Source of the DNA: Candidatus Desulfolinea nitratireducens
GTDB taxonomy: Bacteria > Chloroflexota > Anaerolineae > Anaerolineales > Villigracilaceae
Direction: 5' to 3'
Assembly: GCA_014382535.1 (NCBI GenBank)
Contig: JACNJN010000056.1
Location: forward strand, 1 to 32,757
DNA: 32,757 nucleotides
Shown here: positions 20,365-24,615 of the stretch, one piece after another
How positions within the stretch are numbered: position 1 is the stretch's first letter
Layout: each line of letters opens with the position of its first letter
The notes under the pieces: generated by a model
Databases searched by the model: none
What the model was told of the DNA's origin: nothing
What the model saw: only the letters and a program-made list of their open reading frames with translations
Program-made: the position numbers and the translations under genes

Positions 20365-21192
20365 TTACCACGCCGTCCAACCACCATCCACGACCACGTT
20401 CGAGCCGGTCATGTAAGAGGAGGCATCCGATGCCAAATAGAGCAGCGCGCCATTCATTTCATCTTTATTTGCCATGCGTCCCATGATGGTTTTCGCCGAA
20501 TAGTTGCGCGTAAATGTCTCGTCATGGTCATTATAAACGCCACCCGGTGTGAGCGCATTCACACGGATTTCCGTCTCAGCATAATATGCCGCCAGATATT
20601 TTGTAAAGCCCAGTACACCCGCTTTTGTTGTCGTGTAATAAACGGGTTTGAATGCCACACGTTTGCCATCTTTTAAGTAGATGCGTTGGTCAGGCCCATT
20701 CAACCCATAGGTCGAGCAAATATTGATAATGCTTCCTTTTTTGCCCTGGGCAAGCATTGGTTTCACGCAAGCTTGTGTCACAATGAACATTCCCGTCAGA
20801 TTGACATTCACCGCAGCGTTCCATTGATCAAGCGGATAATCTTCAAACGCGCCCGGGGCAATTCCTTTGGCAGCTGCATCTGCATCAAATTTTGGATCAA
20901 GGGCGGCGCTATTGACAAGAATATCCAAACTGCCAAATTGATGTAGAGTCGTGGAGACCAAATCCTGAGCAGATTCAGGGCGAGTCACATCCAGCCCAAA
21001 ACTTGCCGCTTGGTACCCGGCATCAATCAACGCCTGAGCAGTTTTCCCGGCTGCACCCTGATCAATATCCGCAACAACGACATTTGCTCCAGCTTCAACA
21101 AGCGTGCGGGAAAATTCTGCTCCCAACAGCCCTGAGCCACCAGTGATGATCGCGGTGCGACCAGATAAGTCAAATTTTTCTTGAATGGTCAT
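20365..21192 (-). CDS. Short-chain dehydrogenase/reductase (SDR), second copy
   Basis: The 275-residue SDR has IITGGSGLLGAEF at about 15-27, VNSAALDP, INICSTYGLNGPDQRIY and the catalytic YYTTTKAG, then MTGSNVVVDGGW near the end. The loop between catalytic Ser and Tyr (NGPDQRIYLKDGKRVAFKP) is longer than in the SDR at 7070-7828, so the two are not close duplicates. Versions of this type occur beside CMP-sugar genes, but I cannot name the substrate. The ATG at 21192 has AAGGA six bases upstream; the TTG at 21198 is less likely. It starts 10 bp after the stop of the GT-C gene and precedes the cytidylyltransferase/phosphatase, so it probably acts on the same nonulosonate pathway or on its precursor. 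Confidence 0.9.
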   Translation of the reverse strand: MTIQEKFDLSGRTAIITGGSGLLGAEFSRTLVEAGANVVVADIDQGAAGKTAQALIDAGYQAASFGLDVTRPESAQDLVSTTLHQFGSLDILVNSAALDPKFDADAAAKGIAPGAFEDYPLDQWNAAVNVNLTGMFIVTQACVKPMLAQGKKGSIINICSTYGLNGPDQRIYLKDGKRVAFKPVYYTTTKAGVLGFTKYLAAYYAETEIRVNALTPGGVYNDHDETFTRNYSAKTIMGRMANKDEMNGALLYLASDASSYMTGSNVVVDGGWTAW

Positions 21193-21202
21193 ATCCAATC
21201 CT

Positions 21203-22873
21203 TCAGGGTTGAGCTTGATAAAGATATCCCAAGCCAGATTTTTCTATTGTTACCAAACCGTCTGTCATCTCATCCAACCAGGCCTGAAACTCTGGGCTCT
21301 TATCATCTACCGGCCAGAAAATTGCCAGGACCGCGTCACCAGAACGAAGAGCTTCGGGTTGTTCATCCCAAAGCCGGTAAACTGGACGATCCGTCCAGAA
21401 GTAGACAGCTGGTGGCTGATTGGTGTAAATGGCAGTATCTTCTGGTAATTCGCGGACTGCAACCATAACCGTTGATTCTCGCCAGCGCCAGGAGGCAAAT
21501 CCATGCGCTGATTCCTGCAAATCTTCAACTGTACGAATTTGGGCCCCTATCGCTATGCCAAGAAATAAGGTTGCGATTCCAAAAGCAATAATTCGTGCTG
21601 TTATTTTACCTTGTTGCGCCACCCAATGGATGAAGTAAACCAAAATTACAAGGCAAGCCAGATATACAGGAGAAAGTATGCGGTCGTTGAGCGGTGTAGC
21701 AGCATCAAAGATATTGAGCGAGATCAACAAAGATCCCATATAGGTAAAAATATAAAGCGTGGTTATAAAAGAAAGTATTTCTGGTCGAGTGTTTTCTTTT
21801 GGCTTTAGGAAGTATTTCAAGCCGCGAGGGATAATCCAAAGGAATAAGACGAGCGTAATTAAGGAGGTGATAATTGCTAAAATAAGGGGTTTTTCTATAT
21901 AGGGTGAACATAATTCAGGTTGAGGGATAATGAAGCGAAAAAATGCTCTTAACCCACGTTGAGCATTATCACCTGTAACTGGATGCCATTCAATCGCGCG
22001 ATTGGTCGCACTCCCGCCAACAAGTTTATTGCGCAGCATCCATGCCAACATGACAGGCAAGGCCCCAGCCAAAAAATAGCCTAGGGATGAGAAACGCTTT
22101 TTCCAGCTTGGGCGCAATAGTAAAATAGCGACAATAAAAGTTGCGAATAAGGACAGGGCCGCATAACGGGTGAGATAAGAAAGGCCAGTCAGAATACCAG
22201 CGAGGATGAGCCATTTGCCCCGCATGGGGATTAATCCCCACGCTACAAACACGAAGCCGACTGAAGTCGGCTGCTCTGGCGAGTCCGCTTTAGCGGACTT
22301 TATAAATTTAGCGTGGGCGTTCACGCCCATGCGGGGGCGAAATTCAACCGCTCGATAAAAAGTCAAAAATGCCAAAAGGCTAATAAAAAGATAAAGCGGC
22401 TCGCTAAGCGCCTGGGCATGAAGACGTAAAAGGGTACTATTGCTCAAAAAAAGAAGAGAAAGAAAAATCCCAGCGAGACGGGAATGGGTCATTTTCCAAC
22501 CGAGGAAACCTATAATTCCCGCATTTGCGCCGAAGACAAGAATATTGATAAAACGCGCGCTGCGATAAGGGCTGATTTCGAGGATACTGCTTGTCACTGC
22601 CATTAATGCTGAGAAGAGGGGCGGCCAATGGGTGACCGGTTCCAATCCCGTCGCAAGCCAGATACGGGTGAATCCCTGCCCACCCAGAAGGGCGCGCGCC
22701 GCCGAGATATAGGAAATGGCATCATCTGTCAATCCAAGACCTGTGGGGGTGCTGCTATACAGCAACCACGTTCCGGTCACGGTGAGCAAGCCCAAAAGGA
22801 GGGCGAACACGGCATCTTTGCGGGTAGAGAGAAAACTTTTCATCAAAGTAATCTGAGGGAGGGATTTCCCCAT
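21203..22873 (-). CDS. GT-C-like membrane glycosyltransferase carrying an in-frame palindromic insertion
   Basis: The 556-residue protein has about ten hydrophobic segments. The first outer loop reads GLTDDAISYISAARALLGGQGF with an acidic pair, followed by EPVTHWPPLFS, a pattern of GT39-related membrane proteins. SEPLYLFISLLAFLTFYR follows, and then residues of about 180-218 (PRMGVNAHAK through WGLIPMR) interrupt an otherwise continuous transmembrane pattern. They are encoded entirely by the palindromic element at 22218-22336. Because the insertion keeps the frame, the protein is probably still made with an extra soluble loop. The start could be 22873, within the hairpin after the sulfate adenylyltransferase gene with GAGG five bases upstream, or the ATG at 22843. 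A soluble tail follows the last span. Donor and acceptor are unknown. Confidence 0.75.
   Translation of the reverse strand: MGKSLPQITLMKSFLSTRKDAVFALLLGLLTVTGTWLLYSSTPTGLGLTDDAISYISAARALLGGQGFTRIWLATGLEPVTHWPPLFSALMAVTSSILEISPYRSARFINILVFGANAGIIGFLGWKMTHSRLAGIFLSLLFLSNSTLLRLHAQALSEPLYLFISLLAFLTFYRAVEFRPRMGVNAHAKFIKSAKADSPEQPTSVGFVFVAWGLIPMRGKWLILAGILTGLSYLTRYAALSLFATFIVAILLLRPSWKKRFSSLGYFLAGALPVMLAWMLRNKLVGGSATNRAIEWHPVTGDNAQRGLRAFFRFIIPQPELCSPYIEKPLILAIITSLITLVLFLWIIPRGLKYFLKPKENTRPEILSFITTLYIFTYMGSLLISLNIFDAATPLNDRILSPVYLACLVILVYFIHWVAQQGKITARIIAFGIATLFLGIAIGAQIRTVEDLQESAHGFASWRWRESTVMVAVRELPEDTAIYTNQPPAVYFWTDRPVYRLWDEQPEALRSGDAVLAIFWPVDDKSPEFQAWLDEMTDGLVTIEKSGLGYLYQAQP
22218..22336. repeat. 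119-bp cloverleaf-like palindromic element inside a coding gene
   Basis: The outer 28-nt arms (22218-22245 and 22309-22336) pair through CCCCGCATGGG and CCCACGCTA. Each arm also folds on itself: TGGGG/CCCCA, and TGGGCGT/ACGCCCA. The eight central bases differ between the arms, yet each keeps its own stem. Two inner perfect hairpins with 2-nt loops follow: GCCGACT/AGTCGGC at 22256-22271 and AGTCCGCT/AGCGGACT at 22282-22299. In the gene frame it reads as 39-40 codons with no stop. The tight-stem style matches the 43-bp element at 16222-16264. Confidence 0.9.
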
Positions 22874-22886
22874 CCCTCCCTCAGAT
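22851..22886. promoter_or_regulatory. 15-bp perfect stem-loop between the PAPS-synthesis and GT-C genes
   Basis: ATCTGAGGGAGGGAT pairs perfectly with ATCCCTCCCTCAGAT across a 6-nt loop. On the minus-strand transcript the 5' arm holds GAGGGAGGG, a possible ribosome site, and ends at the ATG of the GT-C frame (22873), which it would hide when folded. No clean T run follows. It could act as a translational block, an mRNA stabiliser or a weak terminator. A 16-nt palindrome, AGATAAATATTTATCT (22883-22898), overlaps its edge and the stop of the upstream gene. Confidence 0.6.
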
Positions 22887-22896
22887 AAATATTTAT

Positions 22897-24615
<1,719 letters not shown>

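Follow-up and report, generated by a model that had tools for sequence, protein, structure and literature searches.

How does a long palindrome come to lie in frame inside a gene for a membrane protein, and is it kept there for a function of its own or carried as a passenger? The question is raised by positions 22218–22336 of the window, the whole 32,757-nt stretch of Candidatus Desulfolinea nitratireducens DNA analysed here. An earlier note, made from the sequence alone, had described a cloverleaf-like palindrome inside a membrane glycosyltransferase gene, probably in a Chloroflexota genome, and had likened it to the Rickettsia palindromic elements.

The element and its host gene

The features used below are as follows, with the basis of the assignment or the covariation result given in brackets.

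21203..22873, minus strand: host gene, encoding a multi-spanning membrane protein with the element as residues 180–219 (open reading frame, homologues)
22218..22336, no strand: whole element, an inverted (tail-to-tail) dimer of a two-hairpin unit, 119 nt (repeats, fold, covariation)
22218..22272, read on the minus strand: left half unit, consisting of small hairpin, spacer and GTAG-tagged hairpin (sequence; solitary half units elsewhere)
22222..22243, minus strand: left REP-like hairpin, with 11-bp arms that are 91% complementary (compensatory change in six of nine modelled pairs)
22243..22246, minus strand: GTAG foot of the left hairpin, CTAC on the plus strand (sequence, tag counts)
22255..22272, no strand: inner hairpin 1, AGCCGACT/AGTCGGCT (compensatory change in two of seven pairs)
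22282..22299, no strand: inner hairpin 2, AGTCCGCT/AGCGGACT (compensatory change in two of seven pairs)
22282..22336, read on the plus strand: right half unit (sequence)
22308..22311, plus strand: TTAG foot of the right hairpin, a degenerate tag (tag counts)
22311..22332, plus strand: right REP-like hairpin (compensatory change in six of nine pairs)

A repeat search of the window located four inverted repeats in the element, each 90–100% complementary. The interval 22210–22345 folds with z = −5.66 as minus-strand RNA and z = −5.86 as plus-strand DNA, and in neither case did any of 200 dinucleotide shuffles fold as well, so the palindrome is real. The four hairpins of the earlier note are four in total, two arms and two inner hairpins, and not four set between the 28-nt arms. 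The arms are identical at 23 of 28 positions, and all mismatches do fall within the central eight bases, where five of the eight differ and not all of them. Since both halves, read outward from the centre, show the same arrangement of small hairpin, spacer of about 10 nt and tagged hairpin, the element is an inverted, tail-to-tail dimer; half units are also found singly, for example at locus L190, and next to transposase genes. A search of positions 21100–23000 against Rfam 15 gave no match up to E = 1.

The host open reading frame has 556 codons, and the element is read on its minus strand without a stop. Each strand of the element has one open frame out of three; the host gene is read in that of the minus strand, and the two open frames have similar ends (PRMG...PMR), the outer hairpins being palindromes. 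The earlier note had counted about 39 stop-free codons between two membrane segments. A simple hydropathy scan places it between hydrophobic segments, and the stretch is indeed open and in frame, with a net gain of about 35 codons when the 45-aa loop is compared with the 10-aa loops of the related genomes G003 and G008.

The host protein is probably a GT-C/PMT-like glycosyltransferase. A Pfam search of the window protein gave no family over its cut-off, and the orthologue in G004 barely passes that of PMT (PF02366), with 24.3 against 22.7 bits. A public locus from an Anaerolineae bacterium, with the same alignment values as the G007 locus, encodes a protein 58% identical to it, in agreement with the proposed Chloroflexota origin. 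An AlphaFold2 model made from a two-row alignment was unusable (mean pLDDT 37.6). At the other end of the gene, a strong inverted repeat at 22852–22885, TCTGAGGGAGGGA...TCCCTCCCTCAGA, looks like a terminator of the upstream gene and overlaps the first codons of the reading frame; translation probably begins at the in-frame ATG at 22843 (MKSFLSTRKD).

A dispersed and mostly intergenic repeat family

The earlier note had suggested a mobile element and, as a check, a search of the whole genome for copies. Such copies exist: blastn with the window element found others in its own genome at E = 1.6e-9, 8.2e-7 and 1.5e-6. The model R1, built from five own-genome copies that match it by construction, gave 55 strand-matches in this genome at E ≤ 10, and three full copies from outside the model (contigs C153, C88 and C185) score 74–84 bits. 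Matches to R1 were present in all nine genomes of the genus at E ≤ 0.01 and in 39 of the 61 sampled genomes of the bacterial family at E ≤ 1e-5, the highest numbers being those of G002, G059, G044, G000 (the genome of the window) and G031.

The elements consist of two units in inverted orientation and measure roughly 100–145 nt. Among 66 aligned half units, the tag at the hairpin foot is TTAG in 23, TGAG in 23, GTAG in 8 and something else in 12. At 19 of 43 sites, where 2 would be expected, a CT dinucleotide directly adjoins the left end; at 12 of 43, a CT stands one base away from the right end. When two cluster loci are excluded, the figures are 16/33 and 12/33, respectively. The window copy has CT at neither end. 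No target-site duplication, of the kind that marks a classical MITE of a DDE transposon, was seen by eye among the 43 flank pairs, and no closely related empty site was found that would show the insertion boundaries, target and footprint.

To locate the copies relative to genes, 86 sites were tabulated from 197 strand-matches; only the better strand of each was kept, and additional array copies from C113 were omitted, as were a number of weak or secondary matches. By a mechanical test, in which "inside" means at least 30 nt of reading frame on each side, six of the 86 lie inside an open reading frame. Four of these frames, of only 68–133 aa, were judged spurious, and their removal leaves two of 86 sites in credible genes, namely the host gene in the window and the orthologue in G005. 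Some further sites share sequence with the end of a reading frame; among them, that at L155 is contained entirely in the opening 125 nt of a frame of 543 codons. The family is thus mostly intergenic.

Contig C113 of the window's genome carries a tandem array (L108, 1118–2183) of five 110-nt four-hairpin copies of equal score, spaced mostly at 145 nt with longer units interrupting. A TnpA gene, also with the element at its flanks, is some 2 kb away, and the array looks like a REPIN cluster.

The conserved structure consists of separate hairpins

Which stems are kept was examined in alignment A5, which holds 33 of 45 carried sites at ≥57 bits; the other 12 were excluded because they had gained or lost long internal stretches or belonged to a divergent type. 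It should be noted that the counts below are not independent events, the copies being related and many of them from G002.

The four local hairpins have 93.3% of cells paired in the 33 copies, and compensatory (both-side) change was observed in 16 pairs and 71 cells, compared with 7.2 and 18.7 in shuffles; slid controls reached at most 5 pairs and 9 cells. When the arms are instead paired with each other, both-side change is seen in six pairs, a number that 193 of 500 shuffles attain (5.2 in shuffles), and in 20 cells, which no shuffle attains (10.0 in shuffles). The inner hairpins supply four of these six pairs and 17 of these 20 cells, and the two arm helices only one pair each and three cells together. 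A long arm-to-arm stem was therefore rejected as a conserved structure, its pairs being at shuffle level and its extra cells coming mostly from the inner hairpins.

The conserved structure is the set of separate local hairpins, which is why the centres of the arms can differ while each arm retains its own stem, as the earlier note had surmised from a single copy. Its cloverleaf survives in that the separate hairpins covary; the stem joining the arms, with its three cells, follows from inverted dimerisation.

A Y1 (HUH) transposase group accompanies the element

The nine genus genomes contain 37 hits to Y1_Tnp (PF01797), of which 34 were scanned, three being without a locus. Matches to R1 lie at six of the 34 loci, and a seventh, L126, shows the same arrangement by eye though not by R1; the model search found none at the other 27. 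Among 13 Y1 proteins compared, the seven element-flanked TnpAs are 36–86% identical to one another, and those of L123 and L137, loci with no R1 match, are about 29–38% identical to the seven. Element-type hairpins thus lie near the gene in all seven identified members of the group (six by model, one by eye).

Read in gene orientation, L130, L031, L125 and L126 have a dimer upstream and a half unit downstream; the remaining three, L032, L124 and L129, have units that diverge more or stand chiefly on one side. The highest R1 score among flanking copies, 69.6 bits, belongs to the G004 gene (L130), and the two TnpAs of the group in the window's own genome (C113, C10) carry more divergent versions of the element than G004.

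From the genome-wide counts of R1 matches, 0.49 Y1 genes are expected to have an element within 500 nt, and five were observed at about the score level of those counts (P = 1.6e-4), or six if the weaker match at L125 is counted. A Fisher test of the TnpA group against the rest gives 5e-6 by model alone, a value that is optimistic because the group was delimited after the association had been seen.

The translations show H-x-H motifs. The two TnpAs tested pass the NCBIfam cut-off for IS200/IS605 transposases (72.8 and 71.5 bits against 55) and fall under that for REP-associated transposases (RAYT, REP_Tyr_transpos; 21.8 bits each against 80). The E. coli TnpAREP, according to the relevant sections of PMC8266576, cuts at CT beside the REP and needs GTAG, and the CT at the left end of our family (19/43) resembles these cleavage sites. 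On this sequence evidence, the TnpA group is probably the trans-acting transposase of the element.

A second four-hairpin version, of the GAGCGGGGCTAAAGCC / CCTGCTCA type, was seen by eye at L022 (G000:C89) and L024 (C220) and accompanies the TnpA subgroup of L124, L125 and L126. This pairing of version and subgroup suggests enzyme-specific tags.

One protein loop, several repeats

Homologues of the host protein were found in 56 of the 100 genomes searched, the window's own included, and 29 of 30 homologous loci were aligned (L058, close to L057, was left out). Between the same two hydrophobic stretches, 15 of the 29 have a loop of at most 17 aa and the other 14 one of at least 20 aa; the reading frames contain no internal stops.

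Within the genus, the loop is short in G008 (10 aa), G003 (10 aa) and G001 (7 aa), and these close homologues lack the inserted residues, a point that the earlier note had proposed to check by alignment. The loop of 45 aa in G000 is made by the window element. In G005 it has 25 aa and holds a 73-nt remnant of the same family; the homologues examined offer no case of the same residues without a DNA palindrome behind them, G005 with this remnant being the only one in which similar residues occur. The 50-aa loop of G004 contains a palindrome of a TGTC/CGTC type, TGTCATTGCGA...TCGCAATGACA (z = −4.4), and the 35-aa loop of G007 contains the same repeat in decayed form (z = 0.04). Other hairpins occupy the 34-aa loop of G002 (z = −3.1), and the 20-aa loop of G006 is without excess structure.

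Besides the window family, the inserts of G002, G004, G015 and G059 were checked as repeats, with counts that include the insert itself and in which a self-complementary site may count on both strands. For the insert of G004, 46 matches were counted in its own genome, 42 in G007, 25 in G000 and none in G002; that of G002 gave 20 in G002. Two of the inserts come from genomes beyond the genus: the one in G059 (z = −4.8) gave 10 matches there and none in G016 or G038, and the one in G015 (z = −2.0) gave 54 there and 55 in G037. Judged by these sequences, several repeat families that differ in sequence have entered the loop without closing the reading frame.

The G002 orthologue carries a further, AT-rich palindrome in frame at residue 131 (L043 2723–2826; G002:C11:13245–13348; z = −3.9), which is likewise repeated: G002 has 11 matches to it and G003 has 7. 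In the G057 orthologue (L067), at about residues 343–380 of the window protein, there is a structure peak with z down to −7.6, a possible further insert.

A structure scan of the 29 coding sequences was noisy: it missed the G002 and G015 inserts and flagged other places, including windows across the short G008 loop. As it does not single out the loop, we rejected it as evidence of a hotspot. In the gene tree, G005 groups with G008, G003 and G002 (support 91/86, below the mark of the tool) and G000 is unplaced; the insert junctions of G000 and G005 are a few bases apart.

The TGTC/CGTC-type repeat in other genes

Twenty loci with the TGTC/CGTC-type repeat were chosen from the better of the 46 and 42 matches in G004 and G007, and 5 of their 24 sites lie inside long reading frames. 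The in-frame hosts (L214, L217, L218, L231 and L233) encode an ABC transporter, TilS, a GHMP kinase, a glycosyltransferase and a Sir2 protein; in the ABC transporter, the insert sits between the membrane and ATPase parts. Four of the five inserts encode a VIASEAKQSP-like peptide. TGTC is given as a variant of the CGTC tag in the description of these tags in PMC3733652, and the repeat may be placed in the CGTC family by tag only. Neither VIASEAKQ nor the long form of the repeat was found in the literature searched.

Comparison with known repeats

REPINs and BIMEs are inverted REP doublets thought to be mobilised by RAYTs (PMC3116915). Our family shares with them, as there described, the inverted doublets of a tagged hairpin, the two alternative folds (a long hairpin or a "clover"), near-identical tandem copies clustered near a transposase gene (the C113 array) and an adjoining Y1 enzyme. 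Like REPINs and BIMEs, it has many, mostly extragenic copies. It differs from the published description in the extra small hairpin before the tagged hairpin of each unit, in tags that are mostly TTAG or TGAG, in tested enzymes that score as IS200/IS605 and under the RAYT cut-off, and in its Anaerolineae host. The family would work like a REPIN, though perhaps not as one in the strict sense, given the degenerate tag and the scores of the two tested enzymes.

GTAG repeats are known in Chloroflexi, and tail-to-tail dimers have been described (Di Nocera et al. 2013, PMC3733652, in the parts on these repeats). The same parts report different REPs at about one recB site in two Xanthomonas species, and intragenic REPs are also mentioned in PMC6006769, so the phenomenon has precedent. 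Tail-to-tail dimers, intragenic copies and the TGTC variant thus link our repeats to the GTAG/CGTC REPs; four-hairpin dimers and a glycosyltransferase-like loop are absent from those parts of PMC3733652. In the TnpAREP/TnpAIS200 classification, as outlined in PMC6006769, subclass 2.6 comprises Y1 genes flanked by "atypical" secondary structures of which further copies are scattered over the genome, and subclass 2.4 shows frame-preserving REP insertions; our family resembles the former in its flanked Y1 genes and dispersed structures and the latter in that the frame is kept.

We found no literature on repetitive extragenic palindromes in Anaerolineae and, by title, no paper on in-frame palindromic MITE-type inserts in Chloroflexi. 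The two-hairpin unit, the pairing with an Anaerolineae TnpA and a loop entered by several families were not found in a literature search of mostly open-access papers. The kind of element is already known; what looks new is the variant, its pairing with an enzyme and the fact that a single loop was entered repeatedly.

Discussion

Taken together, the dispersed copies, the conserved hairpins and the neighbouring transposases lead us to regard the element, with good confidence, as a non-autonomous REPIN/BIME-like mobile sequence, probably moved by TnpA and tolerated in the loop of its host. A small IS200/IS605-like Y1 (HUH) transposase would probably have moved it in trans as single-stranded DNA into a short hydrophilic loop between two membrane helices of the glycosyltransferase-like gene. 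With one open frame on each strand and a loop tolerant of length change, the protein probably stayed functional, and the insert would have persisted as a passenger; the same tolerance would have let other palindromic repeats into the loop in relatives. We infer that transposition took place, that the TnpA group was responsible for the window copy, that the host protein functions with its insert and that the insert is neutral.

It is improbable, in our estimate, that the insert is selected in the gene, with RNA hairpins that regulate the mRNA or a 40-residue loop that has a role in the protein. Such co-option would fit the intact fold of the window copy, the recurrence of palindromic repeats in the same loop of several relatives and the discussion of GTAG and CGTC repeats as RNA elements in part of PMC3733652. 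However, three genus members do with loops of only 7–10 aa, and the inserts vary in sequence and length, from the full element to the 73-nt remnant of G005 and the G007 loop with z near 0, with nothing in common beyond loop length.

To the same small degree, the loop may be a true target hotspot, whose DNA or replication strand attracts single-strand transposition beyond what survivorship would leave. Different repeats in one loop (G000/G005, G004/G007 and G002, plus G015 and G059) are what a hotspot would produce. Against this, the junctions differ among genomes, other loops were entered too (residue 131 in G002, and the peak near 343–380 in G057), and tolerance with survivorship accounts for the pattern without targeting. 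Survivorship in a tolerant loop is the simplest reading. More broadly, we give a limited chance, well below even, to the view that the loop is a recurrent docking site for different palindromic mobile elements of the single-strand type, perhaps actively targeted.

Rickettsia palindromic elements are palindromic inserts within protein genes. The window copy resembles them, by description and not by sequence, in being a palindrome in frame in a conserved protein gene with one open frame per strand, and to this outcome the likeness drawn in the earlier note is confined. A selfish element of that type, specialised for coding genes, is very improbable here: only two of the 86 tabulated sites are in credible genes, and a mostly intergenic family with a probable dedicated HUH transposase is nearer to REP/REPIN/BIME. 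A chance palindrome, an assembly artefact or an ordinary variable loop is hardly credible, for although loops vary widely in this protein family (14 of 29 have at least 20 aa) and the genome is a 223-contig draft, the fold z below −5, the family copies and the covariation speak against it, and the dispersed family refutes it.

Our results place a REPIN-like family and its probable HUH enzyme in the Anaerolineae, with an unusual two-hairpin unit. PMC3116915 (Figure S11 legend) gives two alternative folds for REPINs, one long hairpin or a "clover", and our covariation bears on the proposal made there that they are recognised as the clover, in which each end forms its own hairpin. The most interesting part is the recurrently entered loop. 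It offers, at one place in a protein, a natural series of short forms and of various palindromic insertions in frame, on which tolerance can be tested directly against targeting, as can the origin of new protein segments from mobile DNA. If the loop were a docking site after all, HUH-type mini-elements would repeatedly build new protein loops, and elements open on each strand could be absorbed by genes.
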